Shown here one piece after another: positions 10,436 through 64,000 of a DNA stretch of 64,000 nt. The stretch is from Syncephalis fuscata (Eukaryota; Zoopagomycota; Zoopagomycetes; Zoopagales; Piptocephalidaceae). The stretch lies in the NCBI GenBank assembly GCA_025786725.1, contig JAHLTZ010000001.1, forward strand, positions 434,001 to 498,000, in the 5' to 3' direction. The translations under genes and the position numbers were made by a program. Position 1 is the first letter of the stretch. Each line of letters opens with the position of its first letter. Below the pieces are notes generated by a model. That model was not told the DNA's origin. It was given only the letters and a program-made list of their open reading frames with translations, and ran no database searches.

Positions 10436-12425
10436 TTATTGTGCTGGATTTATAATTCCAAAATATGGAATACGCACAGCATCATACGACAGTAAGGGTG
10501 TAATGCTTATATCAATATCGACTGTAATATAACCGGAGAAAATTAAAGTTTGGTGATTACGCAATGCTTCTGGTGCTATGATTTTAACAGTTATTTCTTT
10601 TATCTCTTTGTAGCCCAATTCAAATCTTGTCTCGGAAAATAAAATCTTTGCATTTGAAAATGCACGTTGAAACATTTTTGGCTCATCTTTTTGATTGGGA
10701 TGTAAGCGACTAACAGAAGCAACCGGTGTTTGTCCCATTATATATTTGCGTCGTTTATGACTGATATTTTTAATACGGATCGTTCTAGTGAGGTGGCCAT
10801 CGGCATTTCTGACCCAAAATCTATCATTACCAAGACTAATTGATGATGGTATAACAACCAGCTTATCGGTAACAATACGGAAGGCATCGAGTAAACCGGC
10901 GCCTTGGTTAACCACTGATTCAGCCTCTAGACGTGCAGTGTTTAGCACTGGCGCAGCAGTATTGTGAAATCTAGCTTTTAATATAGCAATATTTACTCTT
11001 TTTTTGTCACTAGTATGACAAGAAGAGCAGCAGTACCTGCAGCATAGGCAGCTGCAAGTGATGGTCCATTGGCCAGTTCATAGAAGCCTTTCCTTACTGG
11101 TATAGTCGTAAATAACATGGTGCTTGGCGCTGAAACATCCGGATAGGATAAAGTATTTGACGAAAAGTCTTGTACTGAATTTTTATCTACATGCATCATT
11201 TCAGGCATATCCAATTGCCCTACTTTTCCTTTAAAATTCATTTGTATTGTTTGGGTTATTTCTAAATGCTCCGATATTTGATCAAAATAATATGGCCAAA
11301 CATAAAATAGAGGAAGCTCACAAACAGTTGTTCCTGATAGCTGCTCCTTTAATTCCGTAATAACGCCTTTGGCACCATGTTTGTTTGCTTCAGCCAGTAA
11401 TTGACTAGAAGAACAGCTGTTAAGCTTTATAAAAGCAACCTTTCCTTCGACATCTCCAATAAGTTGACATTTGCCATCATTGATAGTCTACCAATAGCAG
11501 GAGCAGCGTTTACCAAATCCAATTTATGATTTATATTACGGCAATTGGTTTTATAAGGAATTGGCACGTCATAGATGCTTTTTAGTGAAAACCAGTAAGT
11601 CATATCGAATGGCATGACAATACCACCAACTAGCAACACATAGGGTCGAATCAGCAAAGAAATGTCCATCATATTTTTGTACTGATTGCCACTAGCAACT
11701 GGCATTACAATTGCTACACCAAGGTTAGTCATTTCTTCAACTATTGTTACTATGTCATTCATAGCTGGGCCGGCTCTAGCATAGGTTGGCATAATAATAA
11801 TGTCCATTTCGTCATCCTTTGCTTTTTTGAGTGCACGGTAGATAATAGATGTAGTAGTAGCACCAACACATCCAAATACACGGTATGCACCCAACGTTGC
11901 ATCAGGTGCAACACCGTAGAATGGGTCCTGTTTACCGGCAATAATACCGGCAAGTCGAGTACCTTGACCATTGCAAGTATCAATGGGATCATCGCTTGGT
12001 ATCGGATTATTAAAGCCAGTAAAGTCGTTACCAACAAAGTTATAACCAAATGCAACTTTATGGCCAGGACCAAAGTGGCCACCAAGAGCAGGATGCGTAT
12101 AATCGACACCACTATCTATAATGCCTATTTTAATACCAGCCCCAAAGTTGTTTGAAGCATGAAGTTTAGATACTTTGGTCGCTTTATGTGGGCTAGGCGG
12201 CTTTAATAGGCGGTTTACACCATAAGCATGCACATATGGCTTTGTTTTATCGGGTATGGCAATAATAGTCTGTTCTTGCACATCACTATTTACTGCCATA
12301 TAGCCTTGATTTGGAATACTTGAAACTATTGGAGAACTACCCAGCGAGTGCTGGTTGATAGACTGAACTACCATGTAGTCGGACAAAAGTAAAAATAAAG
12401 CACCAAGTGCTGATGCTAGCTTCAT
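10436..12425 (-). pseudogene. Secreted subtilisin-like (S8) protein lacking the catalytic His; frame broken twice
   Basis: Starts MKLASALGALFLLLSDY, a signal peptide, at 12425 (an ATG ten codons upstream gives no hydrophobic leader of its own). The S8 domain is clear: Asp motif GIIDSGVDYTHPALGGHFGPG, then where subtilases have HGTHVAG this reads QGTRLAG, so the catalytic His is Gln. The oxyanion Asn is kept (ASGN) and the Ser motif reads GPSLAAAYAAG instead of GTSMA.P, so Ser remains. A PA-like insert (GDVEGKVAFIKLNSC) lies near 11,460. The C-terminal part (10436-10948) is a fibronectin-III-like Fn3_5 region. The frame shifts near 11,488 and in a 7-T run at 10,999-11,005. The usual I9 propeptide is not recognisable. 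Either a dead gene or a secreted pseudoprotease with assembly indels. Confidence 0.8.
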
Positions 12426-13352
12426 ATCTATAATTCTAATTATGAAGAGCAAGTTTAAAAATCAAGGCAGCAAGACAGCCGTCTATAGTTTTCTAGTATG
12501 GGACGTGTATAAGCGTATAAAATTTGTAAAGTGAAATAAAAATTAAATCTTTTGAATTATTCGATGCATCTTATTTAAATATACAATATATGGACTCCGT
12601 CAGCAACTATGTAGAAAAAATAATTTCAAATTTTTATTTTAAGATTTAAAATGCTATAAAAAGATCAACAAATTGAATCGGGTACTAAACACATGGGCTA
12701 ATCTCGATTAAACCTAAATTGCACATTATTACGACCATTTCAGTATGATTTGGTGAAGATGAGATTTTTTCTTCGCATCTGTTGTATATTCTTTCTACGA
12801 CCATGATGTCATCATCTCTACGTCTTCTCGTAGTGTGTTTTCTCAGTAACATTGCTGCATGCCATGTATCTTTATAGCTGCTTGATAATTTGCATTAAGA
12901 GGTATAGTACTTACATTTTTTATTGCTGTAACTTGGTTGTGGTATGTCTGAGTTACAGCTCCATTTTCATGTTTTCTCTTTAAATCCACAAACTTGGCTA
13001 TATTTGAGATCGCTAAAAGGGTGATCGCGTTTCACTTTGTGTTTGATCCCAAAAAAGTTAAACATATTTTGTTATCGTATTGTCATACATGATACCACTG
13101 GATTGCTTAGCATCTGCAGATTCTTTGCACTATTTCTTGTTTAGCAATAAAGTTTTATTATAAAAAGCCAGCTTATACTTAATTGATGGGTGCTAATTGG
13201 AAGGATTGATAAAAGATAATGAGCACGTATACACTTGATTTAACTAAGATTAAATAATTACTATGATTACAATTGGCTAATACATTGAATAGTTAACAGA
13301 GCTATTTTTATTTAAATAGCATTAAATAATGAACATGATTGCACAGTTAAAG
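12426..13352. other. AT-rich spacer between subtilase relic and repeat copy 2
   Basis: About 930 bp, AT-rich, with no coding or RNA signal that I can support. The part near 12426 is the likely promoter of the subtilase relic. Confidence 0.5.
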
Positions 13353-30660: not shown

Positions 30661-33600
30661 ATGAGTCGCCGCGCTAGTAATACTCCGTCGCAGTTTACCT
30701 ACGCGCAACTCGCTGCGCAGAAGCCAGCACCACCACCGCCAGCTCAATCGCAACCGCCAACGCCAACCCAGGCAGCTACGCCTCCAACTGCACCTCCCAG
30801 TACTGGTAGTGCTAAAGGCGCCAACGTTGCCAATAATTCGTCTGCTACACCGGTCAACGGTCGTTCCCGCGCCAACTCCACGTCGCACACCCCTACAGAA
30901 GCTCCAGCAACTACGACTGCGGCTTCTGCTACTAACGCTACCGGTAACACAGTGAATTCTCAGGCGCGCGGTAATGCCGGCGCAAAGCCGCCCGCACCCG
31001 GACCAGTTCCGGTAAAGACAACTGGACAGCGTATGAACTTTGCCAACGTGGTTGCAAAAGCGCCACCTACGCCTACGCGTACTACTGCTGCTCCACCACC
31101 ACCACCACCAGCAGCAGCAGCAGCAGCTAACAAGACTGCATCGTCAGCAACGGCAGCACAATCATCGCAACAGCAACGTGGCGGATCTAATGCAGAAAGG
31201 TAAGCTAAATATTGGTTTAATATACGCATATTATACTAATTTTCTATTATTAGTGCACCAATATCACGTTCTGGATCACGTTCATCTGCTAAATCAGCTG
31301 CCAATACACCTAATTTTGCCAGTGCCGTCAAACGAAATTCATTAACACCTGCAAGCAAGCAGCAACAGCAAGGGTCGTCTGGTGCATTATCATCATCATC
31401 ATCTGCTGCTGCTGCTGCTGCTGCTGCTACAGCTAATCCAGCGGGTACTTCTAATGCAACACGTGGACGTAATCCAGCCACTAGTGGTAAGTAATTGGTT
31501 TATTTGATTGTTTATATTCTACGGGCATTGTTTGTGTATAACACGGCAATGACAAAGCAAATTGGGTATTTTGAAATGGAGTGCTTACACTGGTTATATA
31601 TATACATATATACTATTTGTTTATTTGTTTGACGTCGAAAAGCTAATATTCAGTTTGGCTCTATTAATGCGGCTACTGCATCAGGTGCGGCTACTAGTGG
31701 ATCTACTCAGCAACCGGCTCAATCCGGCCAACAAGCAGCGGCAGCTTCTAATCAACGCAAACCAGTAAGTTATTTATTAATAGATAAACGATTGATTTAT
31801 TAATTTGTTATTTATTAGATGCAAGCAAGTCCAGCTCCTGCAAAGGCAAGCCAAGCAATTACTGGACGTGCTGGGGTACGCGTTCCTGACATTCCACGTA
31901 CTATGTCTGCACCACCCGAGTTGGATCAGCAACAAAAAGCGCAACAGGCTAAAACGTTGCCACCGGGTAATGTTTGGCAAAATAGGCCAACTATTAAAAG
32001 TAAATTAGGCCAAGAAGCAGCCGGTACACCTGCTGCTAATGCTACTGCTAATAATGCTAATCCAGCACGTAATCAACAGCAGCCACAGCCACAACAGCCA
32101 CAGCCACAACAACAACCAGCTGTGCCGGCACAGCCTCAAACGACGCCAGCGGCAGTGCCACAACCGGTAGCTCAACAACAACCGCAATCTAATAATAATG
32201 CTGCCAAGCCTGCTACTAGTACTACTACTACTACTACTAAACCAGCTCCAGCACCTAATGCTCAGCCAAGCTTTGCTGCGGCCGCGGCCGCTGCAGCAGC
32301 CTCTAACGTTGCTCGTTCTGTTCAACAACAACAGCAACAACAGCAACAACAGCAGCAGCCACATCAACAGCAACCAGTGCCACAGCAGCAACAACAGCAT
32401 ATTCCTCATCCTCAGCATCCTCAGCAACAAATGACGCCGGTACAAATACATATGACGCCAGTCCATCCACAAGCTGTACCCGGTGCACCAGCAATGACAC
32501 CACCACAAGGCTATATGATTCCTCACAATAGAGCTGGTCCACACCAGAAAATGCAACAAACACCACAAATGGTTATGCAAGTACCACAAATGGCTGGTAG
32601 TCCAGGTATGGCATATGCTGTCCCAGTTATGGCACATCAAATGCCACATCCACATCAACAGCATGCATATCAACGCGGTCCACAAAAGCATAATCAGCCA
32701 CAAGCTTCCATGTCACCTCGTCAAATGCCAGCCTCACCAGCTATGGCTATGGGCCTTCCTCCTGGTGCTATGATACCACAAGGATGGAATCAATATGCTG
32801 TAAGTAACAATGAATACTATTTATTAAAACAATACTAAATATTAACATTAATAATAATAATAGCAATTTGGTTATAATCCACAGTTTGATCAAGCTCAGC
32901 CTTTATATTATGCACCAACGCCATATCATCAACAAATGGCCTATCAGGCTAGTTATATGAACCAAAATGCAGCCAATGCACAAGCAATGCGGCCACCAAT
33001 GCCACCTGGCCACCTGGCGCTGCCGGTTCACCACGTATGCCATATGCTGCACAGCCATTTGTGCAACCAACTAAACAGAGCCATGCCATAAAGATTGTCG
33101 ACCCCACCACTGGCCAAGTCATTTCAGACTTAAGCAAGTCAGGCGATAATGGCGCAGAGAAGCCCGCTGGCTCACCGGCTGCTGGCTCAAGAGCTATTCC
33201 TATTATAAAGCCAGCCGAAGTTGTAAAGGCTGAAGAAGAGGAAGCCAAACGTAAAGAAGAGGCTGAACGTAAGCGTAAAGAAGAGGAGGAAGCCGAACGC
33301 AAACGCAAAGAAGAAGAAGAGGCTGAACGTAAACGTAAAGAGGAAGAAGAGGCTGAGCGTAAACGTAAAGAGGCTGAAGAAGCCGAACGTAAACGTAAGG
33401 AAGAAGAAGAAGCAGCCGAACGTAAACGTAAAGAGGAGGAAGAGGCAGAACGTAAACGCATAGAAGAAGAAGCTGAGCGTAAACGTAAAGAGGCTGAAGA
33501 AGCCGAACGTAAACGTAAGGAAGAAGAAGAAGCAGCCGAACGTAAACGTATAGAAGAAGAAGAGGCCGAACGTAAACGTAAAGAAGAGGAAGAAGCGGCC

Positions 33601-36600
33601 GAACGTAAACGTATAGAAGAAGAAGAAGAGGCTGAGCGTAAACGTAAAGAGGAAGAAGTTGCTGCTGCTGCTGCTGCTGCTGCTGCCGCTGCAGCTAAAG
33701 CTCAAGAAAAGATACTTGAAGAACGTGCACCTCTTTCTATACCAACTTCGCCTACATTCACTACTGATCAAAGTGGCGATTCGACTGGTAAACGTCCAGC
33801 TGCACCACCTGGTCTTAGTGGCGCTACAGCTGGTAAAATGATGCGTCCACCACCTGGTCTAAGCATGGGTCGTAGCAATTCCGAATCAATGGTGGCCAAT
33901 ACAAGCGGTAATACCACGCCTACAGCAGTGCGTAATCCACAGGCCCTAGAAGCATTTGCCTATCCACCTGGCATTAAGTCACCATTCTTAGGTGATCCAC
34001 AGGCATCAACCAAATTCAAATACGACCGCTCTTTCTTATTACAGTTCAAACAAGTTTGTACGGATAAGCCAAATGGCATGCCAAACCTTGATAACTTTGC
34101 AGCTGGCGATCGTGCTGGTGGTCAGCGTGGCGGCGCACAACGCGGTCGTCGTGGTGGAGCTGGCAGTGCCGGTGCACCACCTGGCATTAAAGCACCTGGT
34201 GACCGTGTCGTTGGCAAAGATAGTGAAACACGTTTCAAGCAATCTACACTTGGACTGGGACAGAATCCAGTTACCGGTTCATTTGCCGTCCCATTGAATC
34301 GTTCATTGGGTGGCAGTATGCGTGGTGCACCGCCTGGCTTGGCTGCTAAACCAAATGCACGCAATAATAATAATAATAATAGTCGTGGACGTGGCGGTCG
34401 TGGTGGACGTGGTGGTGGCGGTGCTGCCGCTATCGATCAAGCATTGGCTATGCCATTAACAGACTTTAAGCCTTAGAAGCATCTGAATCTGGATGGAAGC
34501 CAATGTCCCGCGATAAGAAGGAGGTTGATGAAACGAGTCCAGAGATTGTTACACGTAAGATTAAGTCGCTATTGAACAAGTTAACTTTGGAAAAGTTCGA
34601 CAGTGTCAGTAACCAGATTGTCGAAATTACAAACTATTCAAAGAACGAATCGGATGGCGCTACATTGAAATTGGTTATTCAGCTTGTATTCGAAAAAGCT
34701 ACTGATGAACCAAACTTCAGTGCTATGTGGGCCCAATTGGCTAGCAAGATGTTGGCCAACATTAGCGCAGAAGTACAGGACGAATCGGTGCTTACCCGCG
34801 ACGGTAATCCAATGTGTGGCGGTGTGCTATTCCGTAAATATCTATTGAATAGATGCCAAGAAGAATTTGAAAAGGGCTGGAAGGTGATATGCCAAAGAAT
34901 CCATCAGAAGACTATTTAATGTCTGATGAATATTATACTGCAGCCAAGGCCAAACGTCGTGGTCTTGGTTTGGTTGAATTCATTGGTGAATTGTTTAAAC
35001 TCGATATGTTAACGGAGAAGATTATGCACGAATGCGTACGTCGTTTACTTTCAAATGTACAGGACCCAGAAGAAGAAGAAACCGAGTCGATGGCCAAGCT
35101 AATGTCGACTGTTGGCAAGCTACTAGATCATCGTGCAGCACGCAACTACATGGATGCCTATTTCCATCGCATTCAAGAGCTATCGGTTAATCAAAAGCTA
35201 AGCAGCCGTATTCGCTTTATGCTGCTTGATTTGATTGAACTACGTAACGACAAATGGGTACCACGTCGAGCAGCGGCCGGTCCAAAGACAATTGCCCAAA
35301 TCCACGAAGAGGCATTAAAACAGAAGCAGGAGGCTGAGGCAATGCGTCGTGCTAAGAGTGGTGGTGGTCGTACTGGTGGCGGATCTGGCGGTCCACCTAT
35401 GGGCCAGCATCTTAATCGCTCGGATTCACGCGGTGGCAATAGCAATCGTGGTGGCGATGGCTGGAGTACCGTTGGTGGCGGTGCAACACGTAAAGTTAAC
35501 GATCTATCTAGCTTTGGCAATCTTGCCCGTAGCAAGACAGTATCTACTGGTATGAGTCTTGGTCCAGGTGGCAATGTATTCAATGCACTTGGCGGTGGTG
35601 CTAAAGGTGGCAAGACAGAGCCTGCCAAAGACAAAGAAGAAGGCAAGCCTGGTAGCAATCGCTCCAGCATCATCGGCACTGGCAACATGTTTAGGTAAGT
35701 ATACGGTATTAGTGACTAATTAATAATGACATGTAACTAACATTTATTTATCTATTAGCGCACTTATGGGTGCATCACCGCCAGCATCTGGTCTTAAGGA
35801 GGCTCATTAAGCTCGATGACTGCCAAATCGATCACGAATGAACGACCAAAGTTGAAATTACTGCCTCGTAGTAAAACAATGGATGCGAAGAAGAGGCCGA
35901 TCAAGTGTCGCTGCTCCCGCACCATCTTCATCGTCAAGTGTCAAGGTAACTAAACAACAGGCCAAGAATAAGATTGATAGCATGGTCAAAGAGTTCCTAC
36001 AAGTTAACGAGGCCGACGAAGTTGTCGAGTGCATCAAAGAGCTGGGCAGTACTGAGTATCACAAAGATGCCATTATTGTGTTTGCCAACCAAGTTATGGA
36101 ACGTAAGGTTGATGATGTTAATCGCGTTGCTTCACTATTCAAGAAGTTAGTCAGCACAGATACTGTTTCAAATGCATCAGTTTGTGCGGCCTTTACTGAT
36201 TCTTCAACGATATTGAAGATATGGCGATTGATGTACCATCAGTCTACAAGTTTACGGCCATTTTACTTGCTGGTGCTAATGTAACCGCACCACAAGTAAT
36301 AACGCTACTTAAACCATTACAAGATGCATCATCACTAAGTCCACCAGCACCAAACTACTTGCTGAATACTTGAAGGCCGTACGTGATAATGAGGTAAGTT
36401 CTAATTGCTTATCAATCGATTGTTTACTAATACAAACCTCTTAATATTATTATTCAAATCATTATTAGGGAGAAGAAGTAATGGTAAATCATGCTAAAGC
36501 AGCTCATATCGACTTTAGACCATTGTTCCCTGTAGCTAAACAAGGCGACGATGTATTGGCTGACTATCTAGATATGCAGAACCTACTTATACTCTACCCA

Positions 36601-40985: not shown

Positions 40986-41430
40986 CATTGGAATTGCCGC
41001 GTTATTTGTGTAAATGCTGAGCAGGTTGAAATCAAAACTGGGAGTGTTCTATTATGCCATGAATCTATTGGTACACGCGGACCTCAAAGCATTGTTTGGA
41101 TTGCTTTATTGGTTCATGCTACACATCAATGGTATATCTCGTATACTACAGTATACTAGCATCTCAGCATAATCATAAGTATAAATAGCCCGCAAAATAT
41201 ACACAACCCACTGCAATATCCTCATCACACTCTACTTCTTGCTACACGCGCACTACTCCCCACTCTATACCAACCACACTCTACTATCTCTTTTATTTGT
41301 TTGTCTTAACAAATCAATATCACCATGAAGCTTTCCATTGCCGTCGTTTGCACCATTGTCGTGGCTCTTGTGGCCAGTACAGCCATGGTGGATGCTAATC
41401 CAGTCTTAGTCCGTCGTGGTATGTTGCAAT
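40986..41430 (+). repeat. Promoter-leader duplication, copy 1
   Basis: Collinear with 62101-62550: distal promoter (GGAATTGCCGCG, GAGCAGGTT), proximal promoter (TCTCAGCATAATCATA, TAAATAGCCC), AAATCAATATCACC before the ATG, leader exon and the first bases of intron 1 (GTATGTTGCAAT). ATG-to-repeat-start distance is 339 and 341 bp in the two copies. Confidence 0.9.
41180..41187 (+). promoter_or_regulatory. TATA box of the microexon gene
   Basis: TATAAATA 138 bp before the ATG, followed by GCCCGCAAAA. The equivalent site in copy 2 is TTAAATA at 62300. The element CTCAGCATAATCATA just upstream is conserved in both copies and may be an activator site. Confidence 0.65.
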
Positions 41431-44255
41431 ATTACTAAATATAACAGCATTTGTTTATTAACAGTATTTCTAACTAATAATTATAATAGCTGGCAAGTAA
41501 TATCATATATTAATTATTTACACGCTAATTGTATACTATTTATTGTGTTTATAAATAACTTAATATCAATAGATTGTAAGTTGTATTGTATATGAATTGT
41601 TTACTTACTAATTATATATTACATGTTATGCATATCAATAACTTAATACTAATAGCATATGTAGCATTGTATATTCTGACTTCTAAATTAATGATATTTC
41701 ATGCACTATGTGCTTGACAATTAATATAATAGAAGTAAGGTATTATATATCAACCAATTACTTATTAATTATATGCCATGCATCGTGTATATCAACAATT
41801 TAATATCAATAGCATGTAAGTTATATTGTATATTAATTGAGCATTGGCTAATTGTATATTATTTGTTGTGCATACCAATAACTTAATAATAATAATAGGT
41901 CGTAAGTAACATTGTATATCAACTGACTTATAAACTAATTATATGCCATGCACTATGTGTATCAATAATTTGATGGAATAGTGAGCGAGTAACATTGCAT
42001 ATTAATTGACTATACACTAATTATATATTATGTATTGTGTGTGTTAACAATACAATAGGTCGTAAGTTGTATTATATATCAATTAATTACTTGCTAACTA
42101 TATCCATGTACTGTGTGTATCAACAAATATTAATAGATTGTAGGTAGCATCATATATTAAGTAACTATTGACTAATTGCATATCGTGTATTGTGTGTATC
42201 AATGATTTAATATTGATAGGCAGTAAGTTATATTATATGTCAACTGACCGTACATTAACTATGTTATTTACTGGTTACATCAATTGTTTAATATTAATAG
42301 CTCGTAAGTGATATTGTATATTAACTGATTATACATTAATCATGCTATTTATCGATTGTACCAATTATTTAATACTAATAGGCGGTAAGTGACATTGTAT
42401 ATTAACTGATTATACATTAACTATACTATTTACTGATAATGCCAATTGTTTAACATTAATAGGCGGTAAGTAACATTGTATATTAATTAACTATACATTA
42501 AATATGCTACTTACTGATTGTACCAATTATTTAATACTAATAGGCGGTAAGTAACATTGTATATTAACTGATTATACATTAACTGCTACTTACTAATTGT
42601 ATTAATTATTTAATATTAATAGACAGTAAGTGATATTGTATATTAACTGATTATACATTAACACTATTTACTAATTGTGATAATTGTTTAATATTAATAG
42701 CTAGTAAGTTATATTGTACATTAATTAACTATACATTAACTATGCTATTTACTAATTGTATCAATTGTTTAATATTAATAGAATGTAAGTTGTATTGTAA
42801 CTTAACTTATTATACATTAACTATAATTTTGGTTATACCAATTATTTAATATTAATAGTTTGTAAGTTGTGTTGTATGTTAATTGGTTATTTGCTAATTG
42901 TATATGATGTACTATGTGCGCCAACAACTTAATATAATAGGCAGTAAGTAGTATTGTATATTAATTGACTATTAACTAATTATATACCATGCACCGTGTA
43001 TATTAATAACTTAATATTAATAGGTCGTAAGTGATATTGTATATTAACTAATTATATATTGACTATGATATTTACTGATTGTGCCAATTATTTAATATTA
43101 ATAGACAGTAAGTTGTATTGTATATTAATTGACTATACATTAACTATGCTATTTACTGATTGTACCAATTATTTAATATTAATAGATTGTAAGTTGTGTT
43201 GTATGTTAATTGGTTATACATTAACTATGATTCTGGTTATATCAACTATTTAATATTAATAGATTGTAAGTGACATTGTATATTAACTGATTATACATTA
43301 ACTGCTATTTATCGATTGTACTAATTATTTAATATTATTAGTCCGTAAGTAATATTATATATTAATTGACTACATTAACACTATTTACTAATTGTACTAA
43401 TTGTTTAATATTAATAGCTGGTAAGTAATATTATATATTAATTGACTACATTAACACTATTTACTAATTGTACCAATTGTTTAATATTAATAGCTCGTAA
43501 GTAATATTGTATATTATTTTTTTTATTTTTATTTTGAAGAGCTTGTGAGCCCCCGCTGCGCATAATTAAAGAATTTGCGCTGCTTCCCACTATATTTGGA
43601 CTTTTCCAAACTTTTAACGGGTGGACTGCCACGTTTTTGCGCAAAATCTGGTCCATATAGATTTTACACGGGGGCCATCTTCCTTTAAATGGTGCTACAC
43701 AGCACTATTCTCTTGAAGTTGGTCCCAATTGGGTTTTCCTCGGCTATTCTGGCCAAGGTCTTGTTTCCGGACCTACTTATTGGGTTCTGGTTTGCAATTT
43801 GTTAACTAGAGAAAACTGGAGGGGGGGATTTTCCACTTAAGGATTGATTCAAACTGAGGTTTGAACCCGGAGCCTTCAGCTCGGGAGACGCTGCCTTACC
43901 AACTGGGCTAGCAACGTCCCCCGAGTAATATTGTATATTAGTTAACTATACATTAACTATGCTATTTACTAATTGTATCAACTATTCAATATTAATAGAA
44001 TGTATGTAAATTTTTGTATTAGTTAATTACTCACTAATTGCATATTATGCACCATGTATATCAATAACTTAATATTAATAGGCTGTAAGTAGCATTATAT
44101 ATCGACTGGCTATGCATTAATTATATGGCATATAATATTTTTATTTATAAATACAGAATAATCGATGGCTTCAAGACATCAGCATTGATAGTGCAATCAA
44201 ACCACTATTCCAATACACTTTAGGTATATATTCGGTGAAAAGCAAGACCATTTGA
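41325..44255 (+). CDS. Secreted-peptide gene built from a chain of single-codon exons (proposed)
   Basis: Exon 1 (41325-41418) gives signal peptide MKLSIAVVCTIVVALVASTA, MVDA, then NPVLVRR, a Kex2-type dibasic end, plus a lone G before GTATGT. Then 28 islands lie between consecutive TAG acceptors and GTAAGT-type donors, starting at 41490 CTG, 41573 ATT, 41656 CATAT, 41733 AA, 41813 CAT, 41899 GTC, 41982 TGAGCGA, 42059 GTC, 42137 ATT, 42220 GCA, 42301 CTC, 42382 GCG, 42463 GCG, 42544 GCG, 42623 ACA, 42701 CTA, 42782 AAT, 42859 TTT, 42941 GCA, 43024 GTC, 43105 ACA, 43186 ATT, 43263 ATT, 43342 TCC, 43418 CTG, 43494 CTC, 43999 AAT, 44082 GCT. The terminal exon 44157-44255 ends in TGA. Islands 1-7 close phase 1 to phase 0 (ADSYNMSER); islands 8-28 are one codon each (VIALAAATLN, then FAVTIISLLNA). 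Predicted product ~93 residues. Competing model: acceptor at 41464 gives a two-exon product stopping near 41,593, with the array non-coding. RNA evidence is needed. Confidence 0.6.
43500..43516. repeat. Target-site duplication, left
   Basis: AGTAATATTGTATATTA, identical to 43924-43940. Consistent with staggered-cut insertion of the SINE between them. Confidence 0.92.
43517..43923 (-). mobile_element. tRNA-derived SINE, 407 bp
   Basis: On the minus strand the element begins with a tRNA-like head: box A TAGCCCAGTTGG (43899-43910) and box B GGTTCAAACC (43858-43867), spaced 31 bp apart, with internal Pol III promoter layout. A ~320-bp unrelated body follows, and it ends in an A-rich tail (complement of the T-run at 43517-43535). 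It is flanked by a perfect 17-bp duplication and is GC-richer than its surroundings. No coding capacity: it depends on a LINE elsewhere. It interrupts the intron between microexons CTC (43494) and AAT (43999), lengthening it from ~78 to ~502 nt. Confidence 0.9.
43924..43940. repeat. Target-site duplication, right
   Basis: Perfect 17-bp copy of 43500-43516. Removing the SINE and one copy restores a normal ~80-bp unit of the array. Confidence 0.92.
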
Positions 44256-62100: not shown

Positions 62101-62550
62101 ATTGAAATTGCCGCGTCATCTGTGTAATTGCCGAGCAGGTTAAAGCAAAAACCTCGGCAGCATGTTATTACGTCATTGCTATGTTGGTATATACGTATGC
62201 TCCAAGCCACCATGCAAATGTGCTGTTATTGGTTCACGCTGTACATAATGGTATGACCTATACAGCACAGTATACTGGTATCTCAGCATAATCATATACT
62301 TAAATAGCCCCAAAATACACACAACTAACTAGCGATATCATCGCCACATTCTAATCTCTGCCAAATACTCACTATTATCTATTTTATATTACCGAATTTA
62401 TTGTTTAATATACTTTATTATTTTAGCAAATCAATATCACCATGAAGCTTTCTATTGCCGTCGTTTGCACCATTGTCGTGGCCTTTGTGGCTAATACTGC
62501 TATGGTGGATGCTAAGCCAAACCGAATCCGCCGTGGTATGTTGCAATTAC
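62101..62550 (+). repeat. Promoter-leader duplication, copy 2
   Basis: Second copy of 40986-41430, direct orientation, 21.1 kb away. Conserved: TCTCAGCATAATCATA, TAAATAGCCC, AAATCAATATCACCATGAAGCT, and intron start GTATGTTGCAAT. Similarity stops within the first intron. Confidence 0.9.
62300..62306 (+). promoter_or_regulatory. TATA-like element of leader copy 2
   Basis: TTAAATA 136 bp before the ATG, aligned with TATAAATA of copy 1; followed by GCCCCAAAA. Confidence 0.5.
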
Positions 62551-62779: not shown

Positions 62780-64000
62780 TTAAAATGACAAATCTATTAT
62801 TTTATAATCTTTGCCACGAGCTATTAACATCGCGTTTCTCGTGTTAAATGTATCGTTTAATAATAAAGGATGATTAATCAGGCGGTCAAGCCTTACAATA
62901 ATAGTACGACGTCGAAGCACTTGTTTGTATAAATACTCTGAATTTTTCTTGCCCAACTTTCTGGTACGATTTGAATTAATTAAATCTATCGCTGTAAGTG
63001 TGCCGTCGTCTTTAGAGCTACAAACAATAAATCCTCCAATACATAATGAAAAATGCTTAGTATACTTGTTTATATTTAGCAGGCGAGGAGCTCCAGGCAC
63101 TGAACTTAAGGTTTCTACGTCGATATGTGCTAGTATAGCGCCATCGGTTAGGCTGTGAATTGCCCAGTTTTTTGAATACATAACAAGAATGCGGTTAAAA
63201 CCAAATAGCGGTACTGTGCTATAACGATAGTTGTTAAGTAGCCAAATGGGTTCTACGTTTTTAATACAAGCATTTGGGCTGCCGCATTCTGTTGAAATCA
63301 TAGCTAAGCTTATTTCATCTGCTCTGTCTTTGTTCACTATATTAACAGCTAGCTTTGAGTTATTCTCAATTAAAACTCGATTGTCATCTAGTTTTCTAAC
63401 AAGAATTTTAAAGTCTTCAAACCTTTTAAAGCATATTTCTCCTTGCATTAGACAACGCGGGCCATATCCTAGATGGCGAGCTGAAAACTCCCATACGTTC
63501 CATTTAAGCGTGGTAGTGGTATCAGAATAATGCAATGATCTACTAAATATAGTTACTGCTTCTTCGGTAGCTTTCAATAAAAATGTTTCACCATGATGAG
63601 TTGTAATAGTACCCATGCACAATTGACCGTTAGCAAGATCAAAAACGTGAGTTGCTAGTACATTTGATCTATCTGTTTCTCCGGTTGTTGGCTTTAAATG
63701 ATTAATCATCATCCAGCGACCACGAATGCTTGCACTGTCGCATAAACAGGAAAATTGACGCGGTCGTATAAGTGAGATCAGATGCAGCGGCCAAATGTAA
63801 ATGATGCATGGCTCTGTAATAAAATCTGCGTTATTTGCTTGTTTAGTAATAGCCACTACAAATCTATCTGATATCAACATTGTTTTGCGTAATATTTATA
63901 GTTTGCATCATTTTGAAATAATTTACGTAAGCGCCAAAATCGCTCAGTAAACGCTTCTCCTATTGGCTGACATTGTTCAACAATAAAGCATTTACGCAGG
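62780..64000 (-). CDS. Uncharacterised protein, possibly F-box/beta-propeller-like (5' truncated)
   Basis: Runs off the right edge. The open frame from 63,880 gives LISDRFVVAI, several strand-rich segments (HVFDLANGQLCMGTI, ILVMYSKNWAIHSLTDGAIL, FIVCSSKDDGTLTAIDL) and stop at 62,780, suggesting a degenerate beta-propeller. Upstream, in another frame from the window edge to ~63,875, is FWRLRKLFQNDANYKYYAKQ, which reads like the region after an F-box; one missing A in ACAATGTTG joins the frames. Function not recognised; the F-box suggestion is inference from this layout. Confidence 0.5.

Follow-up and report, generated by a model that had tools for sequence, protein, structure and literature searches.

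A secreted-peptide gene family of Syncephalis fuscata whose mature regions appear to be joined from consecutive 3-nt exons

The 64,000-nt stretch of the mycoparasite Syncephalis fuscata analysed here (positions 434,001 to 498,000 of contig JAHLTZ010000001.1, assembly GCA_025786725.1; hereafter the window) carries, from 41325 on the plus strand, a gene in which very short exons, referred to as islands, alternate with introns that resemble one another. The gene very probably belongs to a large secreted-peptide family, in which the mature region is split by phase-1 introns after almost every codon and would be joined from 3-nt exons. This interpretation draws on the exon lengths, the intron phase, the order-dependent frame of the joined islands, the cysteine framework and the agreement with intronless paralogs, all read directly from the genome. 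Of the 41 copies read (the window copy, L009–L028 and L030–L049), 30 contain an array with eight or more islands, and 22 of these arrays are distinct. The other 11 have no introns; ten of them were read completely, and one, L034, is truncated by the contig end and has a tail matching L035. Tests on 22 genes leave out eight near-duplicate arrays (the window copy, L011, L013, L032, L038, L040, L045 and L047).

In the window copy, exon 1 (41325–41418, 94 nt) encodes a signal peptide and a pro-sequence up to RR, followed by a G that is base 1 of the next codon. Exon 1 and the terminal exon (from 44157) are separated by 28 islands: 25 of 3 nt, an irregular one scored as 13 nt, one of 2 nt, and one with either a 3-nt or a 7-nt reading. 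Every island has a TAG acceptor on its 5′ side and a GTAAGT-type donor on its 3′ side (a GC donor in two cases). A first-pass annotation of this DNA had described 28 islands, 25 of them 3 nt, between back-to-back splice signals, and our reading of the locus bears this out. The introns are 64–83 nt, with the sole exception of one of 502 nt that contains a 410-bp insert.

The first intron (41419–41489, 71 nt, GTATGT...TAG) is followed by the 3-nt exons CTG (41490–41492), with the GC donor GCAAGT, and ATT (41573–41575), where the alignment shows about one unit fewer than in the twin copy L010. The irregular unit comes next (41656–41668), with an uncertain exon end and a donor unlike that of L010, and then the 2-nt island AA (41733–41734), where L010 has 3 nt. 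The 3-nt exons resume with CAT (41813–41815), GTC (41899–41901) and TGA (41982–41984), the last with the weak GC donor GCGAGT (score 4.8). This TGA is no stop in phase 1, and its inclusion yields C-x2-C-x3-C in the twins L010 and L011. The series continues with GTC (42059–42061), ATT (42137–42139), GCA (42220–42222), CTC (42301–42303), three GCG exons (42382–42384, 42463–42465 and 42544–42546), ACA (42623–42625), CTA (42701–42703), AAT (42782–42784), TTT (42859–42861), GCA (42941–42943), GTC (43024–43026), ACA (43105–43107), two ATT exons (43186–43188 and 43263–43265), TCC (43342–43344), CTG (43418–43420) and CTC (43494–43496). Beyond the long intron (43497–43998), the exon AAT (43999–44001) has the donor GTATGT, and the splice model described below favoured a 7-nt reading of it, to 44005. 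The last 3-nt exon is GCT (44082–44084), the T of which is base 1 of the stop codon; the AA at the start of the terminal exon (44157–44158) completes TAA, and the rest is taken as 3′ untranslated region (UTR).

The 410-bp insert (43516–43925, minus strand) resembles a short interspersed nuclear element (SINE). It carries, on its minus strand, what we take to be tRNA-like boxes, and ARAGORN identified no tRNA in it. No second copy was found elsewhere within the window. Inserts 87–98% identical to it occur in 7 of the 10 other introns longer than 300 nt, in L018, L021, L022, L027, L038, L044 and L047, which with the window copy makes 8 of 30 arrays. The window copy has 28 islands, six fewer than the 34 of L010 and L011. 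It also has two irregular units and contains the SINE-like insert, and it is probably a partly damaged, decaying member of the family. The 13-nt and 2-nt islands, if combined, would keep the reading frame.

Island lengths were scored with a splice model made of donor and acceptor matrices from the flanks of 762 three-nt islands, which held no reading-frame information and had a flat exon-length prior from 0 to 15. Of 858 islands in the 30 arrays, 814 were 3 nt and 37 were 6 nt; the remaining seven were 7 nt (three islands), 2 nt (two), 13 nt (one) and 15 nt (one), with the 7-nt readings in the window copy, L010 and L011 retained in this count. Genome-wide, exact matches to ATAG-n-GTAAGTNRYRTTRTATRTTA numbered 842 at n = 3, one at n = 4–5, one at n = 7–12 (9 nt) and six at n = 0–2, four of which coincide with 6-nt islands of the TTAG pattern and are counted there. 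A further 45 matches had 6 nt after TTAG, a count that covers the TTAG start and not ATAG. Multiples of three account for 888 of these 891 places, and a backwards control of all five patterns gave 0 matches each. Because matches at n = 3 far outnumber those at the other lengths and the backwards control gave none, the island pattern is not due to chance.

The introns of the 22 genes (635, omitting those over 95 nt) are 57–85 nt, most commonly 78–80 nt, and form one sequence family with a mean pairwise identity of 0.73–0.77 by category. Their length modulo 3 is unconstrained (219, 164 and 252 for remainders 0, 1 and 2), and retention would give an in-frame stop in 511 of them. In 25 of the 30 arrays, all islands are multiples of three and a stop is in place, provided that AAT is read for L010 and L011; the window copy, L013, L014, L040 and L044 are not among them.

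All 30 array genes have an exon 1 of either 94 or 97 nt. These lengths were presupposed by the search pattern, and the raw letters show the same. The introns are therefore of phase 1, and the phase-0 introns proposed in the first-pass annotation do not hold, since the 94-nt exon 1 of the window copy sets phase 1. The islands joined in phase 1 encode mostly cysteine-rich peptides behind the RR site, such as GSYEECKACMVVCKDRGELSKEQCQGKCYNQC (L009) and GDPAQCAACVENCKRRTGLDWGKCRNGSCRTIC (L028). When the island order was shuffled within the 22 genes (5000 times), stops rose from 1 observed to 38.0 ± 4.6 (minimum 21), and cysteines fell from 113 observed to 57.0 ± 5.3 (maximum 78). The sole remaining stop, in L020, is taken as the natural terminator of that gene. 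For all 30 arrays, the corresponding values were 2 versus 48.6 stops and 149 versus 77.0 cysteines. The C-x2/3-C-x3-C framework was found in 16 of the 22 genes, compared to a mean of 0.41 and a maximum of 3 in 2000 shuffles. Because every codon is split between two islands with about 80 bases between them and the order of the islands matters, these results are strong evidence that neighbouring islands are joined.

Some arrays encode other kinds of predicted product. L020, L047, L019 and L045 are short arrays with two-cysteine predicted peptides (e.g., RR-DPCDPFHPCTS), unlike the six-cysteine members. The L044 array, for which the model scores are partly low, predicts a product that contains an internal KR and is not rich in cysteine.

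The islands could instead be phase-0 single-codon exons followed by a terminal exon coding about 33 residues, which we consider highly improbable. Phase-0 stop triplets are indeed few (1 of 610 three-nt islands, with 9.7 expected), and the terminal-exon DNA is conserved and, in the window copy, open in phase 0. However, exon 1 ends in phase 1, and the phase-0 peptide of the first-pass annotation fares poorly, with 3 cysteines in 677 codons versus 113 in phase 1. The paucity of phase-0 stops may reflect rare NTA codons, together with the second acceptor that a TAG island would create. Phase-0 stop avoidance had also been considered as a decisive signal by itself, and it proved weaker in this role (1 versus 9.7) once the phase of exon 1 was seen.

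The 3′ ends of the genes also bear on the phase. A terminal exon was placed by pattern in 28 arrays. The phase-1 stop lies 2–17 nt inside this exon in 22 arrays and immediately ahead of it in two (L020 and L047); it lies 67 nt inside in the window copy, L010 and L011 with the 7-nt reading (immediate with the 3-nt reading), and 99 nt inside in L013, where the frame is broken. L014 and L022 escaped the pattern, and the end of L022 was read by eye instead. The coding regions of the intronless paralogs continue directly into sequence related to the array 3′ end; L017 and L030 contain TAATCGATGG exactly, others carry variants of it, and all ten have a AGCATTGGTAG-type block. Because the phase-1 stop stands at the terminal exon and related sequence follows the stop in these paralogs, the long terminal-exon reading frame of the window copy is most likely untranslated (3′ UTR). 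The first-pass annotation had taken it as coding up to a TGA, in an exon drawn to 44255, whereas the 3-nt reading of the island at 43999 places the AA of a phase-1 TAA at 44157–44158. In addition, the terminal regions of L019 and L045 differ in length by 1 nt, which would break phase 0, and the intronless paralogs as a whole make a phase-0 gene unlikely.

The ten intronless paralogs share exon 1, the C-x2/3-C-x3-C framework (judged by eye) and the 3′ block with the arrays. A promoter block is common to eight of them: TATAAATA, which lies at 41180–41187 (plus strand) in the window as read from the sequence, or TTTAAATA is found at the same place in all but L048 and L049, as well as in the three array copies compared. 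Their products, exemplified by GACEDCINSCRINFPKPQYPAHYCLNKCKAEGKCQ (L036), look like the spliced product of the arrays. This agreement, together with the multiples of three, the stop avoidance and the placement of cysteines across junctions, is left unexplained if exon 1 is spliced directly to the terminal exon and the entire array is lost, with the islands as relics or recursive-splicing steps. The back-to-back acceptor and donor signals do resemble ratchet sites, but removal of the whole array would leave a signal peptide followed by hardly anything beyond RR, and we regard this possibility as extremely doubtful.

In a tree of the flanks with 40 rows (L034 left out; L009 and L014 without their 3′ part), the 10 intronless copies are scattered, which corresponds to 5 changes on the tree, 2 of them forced by well-supported branches. 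Because of this scatter, intronless members probably arose more than once, through recombination with complementary DNA (cDNA). Alternatively, as regards the origin only, the intronless form could be ancestral, and introner-like elements could have inserted introns at each codon, a scenario consistent with the single sequence family of the introns and with the flanks common to arrays and intronless paralogs. It is unlikely, as it needs dozens of insertions in many genes, all between codon bases 1 and 2, and the scattered rows are more easily explained by repeated one-step loss.

If the introns are indeed removed one by one, each residue amounts to a unit of its own, about 81 bp long and made up of one intron and one codon. 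L012 and L013 differ in runs of 79, 163 and 82 nt, which are whole units. The window copy and L010 differ in runs of 82 and 81 nt and many smaller differences, L026 and L038 in runs of 79 and 71 nt and many smaller ones, and L020 and L047 in a single 414-nt insert, whereas gaps are small or absent in L010/L011, L019/L045, L031/L032 and L040/L041. Of the 635 introns, 164 have their closest relative within their own gene, with 30 expected. Since each unit keeps the frame, single residues could be gained or lost by unequal recombination between near-identical introns. The residue-by-residue peptide change envisaged in the first-pass annotation is thus supported as an evolutionary process by the whole-unit gain and loss in some pairs, such as L012/L013, and it is not seen in every pair.

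The divergence of islands exceeded that of introns in three comparisons (0.277 versus 0.066, 0.464 versus 0.113, and 0.437 versus 0.139; Fisher p = 8.6e-9, 8.7e-15 and 5.5e-11, respectively). The island-to-intron ratios in five comparisons with p below 0.02 were 4.2, 4.1, 3.2, 2.5 and 1.7; these are not all independent, as L012 and L015 were each used twice, and misaligned units may inflate some of the ratios. For window/L010 and window/L011, the values were 0.212 and 0.235 for islands and 0.116 and 0.131 for introns. These results suggest that the islands evolve faster than the introns in the more diverged copies, with splice sites changing little in several pairs. The sequence supports the earlier description of a secreted-peptide gene of consecutive 3-nt exons with variable islands and conserved introns and splice sites. 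The faster island change is at odds with the possibility, which we consider very improbable, that the arrays are satellites of repeated introns, either non-coding or in decay, with a coding signal left from the past. The irregular window copy, the SINE-like inserts in 8 of 30 arrays and the single intron family of the units would fit such satellites, but 25 of 30 arrays keep all islands as multiples of three with the stop in place, and in several pairs the islands change faster than the introns.

Several observations weigh against the joining of 3-nt exons in these genes. The window copy has the 13-nt (as scored) and 2-nt islands and six islands fewer than its twins, L013 has a 2-nt island, and the first donor base after exon 1 is changed in L040. 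No terminal exon was found in L014, the L044 array is different and partly low-scoring, and L010, L011 and the window copy have a 7-nt island unless the 3-nt alternative is chosen. Among the copies read, no intronless paralog corresponds exactly to the cDNA of an array gene, and stops are few in phase 0 also, as given above. As for the evolution of the units, the four twin pairs without large gaps have equal island numbers, no island base has changed in L031/L032 and L020/L047, and the 1.7-fold island excess in L010/L011 and L040/L041 is not significant.

The family extends well beyond the copies read. The signal exon is present in at least 150 copies in the genome, including that of the window gene, at the protein level (150 of 150 scored, among 322 candidates), and at the DNA level 40 of 40 scored places match, again including its own, among 237 candidates. 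This copy number, the cysteine-rich products, the intronless versions and the irregular units of the window copy go beyond what the first-pass annotation contained. The open frame behind the signal exon is at most 43 residues in 82 of the 150 copies, 50–62 in 14 and at least 65 in 54, which is a rough proxy for array versus intronless copies, since L050, with a frame of 61, is an array. Outside the counts are L029, L050 and the short pieces L051–L058. Further arrays behind the signal exon were found in L050 by the scan and in L052, L053 and L057 by eye in 501-base pieces; the same exon heads the intronless linear peptides L051 and L055 and leads the annotated proteins P0008 and P0010 (106 and 111 residues). 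Because it leads linear peptides, other arrays and annotated proteins alike, the signal exon is a common secretion module, and the shared exon 1 and 3′ block tie the window gene to a family of RR-processed peptides.

With the spliced product of a paralog as query, four matching proteins were retrieved, all from S. fuscata; the query with an aligned set of ten intronless relatives gave 13 proteins, from S. fuscata only. The public protein P0001 is identical letter for letter to the product of L035. Among the matches listed, none of the 13 public S. fuscata models matches a spliced array product along its length; the model P0004 includes letters matching a translated window intron, and P0007 appears alike by eye. 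These public models exemplify how such genes can be missed by annotation. According to PMC7821500, the sensitivity of common aligners declines below 8–10 nt. Pfam and PDB searches (with five proteins and one protein, respectively) gave sub-threshold or weak matches only, to the Anosmin cysteine-rich box (E 0.0012 and 0.018) and TIL (0.018). Structural modelling of the intronless family reached moderate confidence, with a mean predicted local distance difference test score (pLDDT) of 67.6, a predicted template modelling score (pTM) of 0.40, and helices at 27–44 and 52–61.

Elsewhere in the window, a second family signal exon (62442–62534, plus strand) is followed by intron-like sequence and has the appearance of a remnant; no array was found behind it by pattern, and a reverse-strand reading frame ends just past it, at 62780. 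Tandem repeats at 33254–33658 (plus strand) lie in a reading frame that encodes a long charged run of KRKEEEEAER-type repeats, and a reading frame at 11427–12452 (minus strand) resembles, by eye, a secreted subtilisin-type protease.

Introner elements are families of near-identical introns scattered over many unrelated genes. The S. fuscata introns likewise form one sequence family, and in the copies read they are, unlike introners, stacked in tandem within one gene family. Aphid bicycle exons are larger than one codon, and paired CYC motifs characterise the bicycle proteins; searches with the S. fuscata family returned S. fuscata proteins only. In PMC9168663, bicycle genes have about 17 exons on average and are, as here, putative effectors with unusually small internal exons, almost all of which start at codon position 2, where the internal exons of the S. 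fuscata arrays also start. The micro-exon genes (MEGs) of Schistosoma, as presented in PMC10526429, have 10–20 exons of 6–81 bp (3–81 is also given), mostly 15 bp, and introns of 0.1–5 kb. Like these, the arrays encode secreted proteins (signal peptide judged by eye) in series of tiny exons, most of them divisible by three in length, and are hard to annotate. Alternative splicing of the micro-exons is a further trait of MEGs. Unlike the MEGs in that account, the S. fuscata genes have runs of 3-nt exons (814 of 858 islands, not mostly 15 bp) and mutually similar introns of about 78 nt (57–85 nt, not long), up to 50 of them. The plant genes APC11 and VPS55, described in PMC8831610, contain 1-nt microexons, indicating that exons as small as these or smaller are spliced; those are isolated microexons in conserved genes, whereas S. 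fuscata has arrays. The same paper attributes intronless APC11 copies to reverse-transcription-mediated intron loss. A literature search, mostly without subscription papers, found no description of consecutive 3-nt exon runs or of this family.

In the proposed mechanism, exon 1 would encode a signal peptide (recognised by eye) and a short pro-sequence to RR, a likely Kex2-type cleavage site. The spliceosome would take out 14–50 introns in each gene and link exons of 3 nt, or sometimes 6 nt, into a messenger RNA encoding a small peptide that is usually rich in cysteine. With a length of about 78 nt and strong, similar ends, the introns are probably recognised by intron definition, and the exons are probably joined in the 5′-to-3′ direction, such that each 3-nt exon would become part of the lengthening upstream exon before it has to serve alone. 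Unequal recombination between near-identical introns could add or remove single residues, and isoforms differing by one residue are possible because skipping any number of units keeps the frame. The chances appear evenly balanced that each residue is one genetic cassette, and that intron recombination, possibly with exon skipping, edits the peptide residue by residue while the signal exon, the splice sites and the cysteine framework remain fixed.

If true, the arrays represent a new extreme of eukaryotic gene structure, with 14–50 introns interrupting the few dozen codons of the peptide region. They raise the question of how the spliceosome handles runs of 3-nt exons, for which the intron-full and intron-free relatives offer natural test material, and they suggest a route to hypervariable secreted peptides through the gain and loss of single residues.

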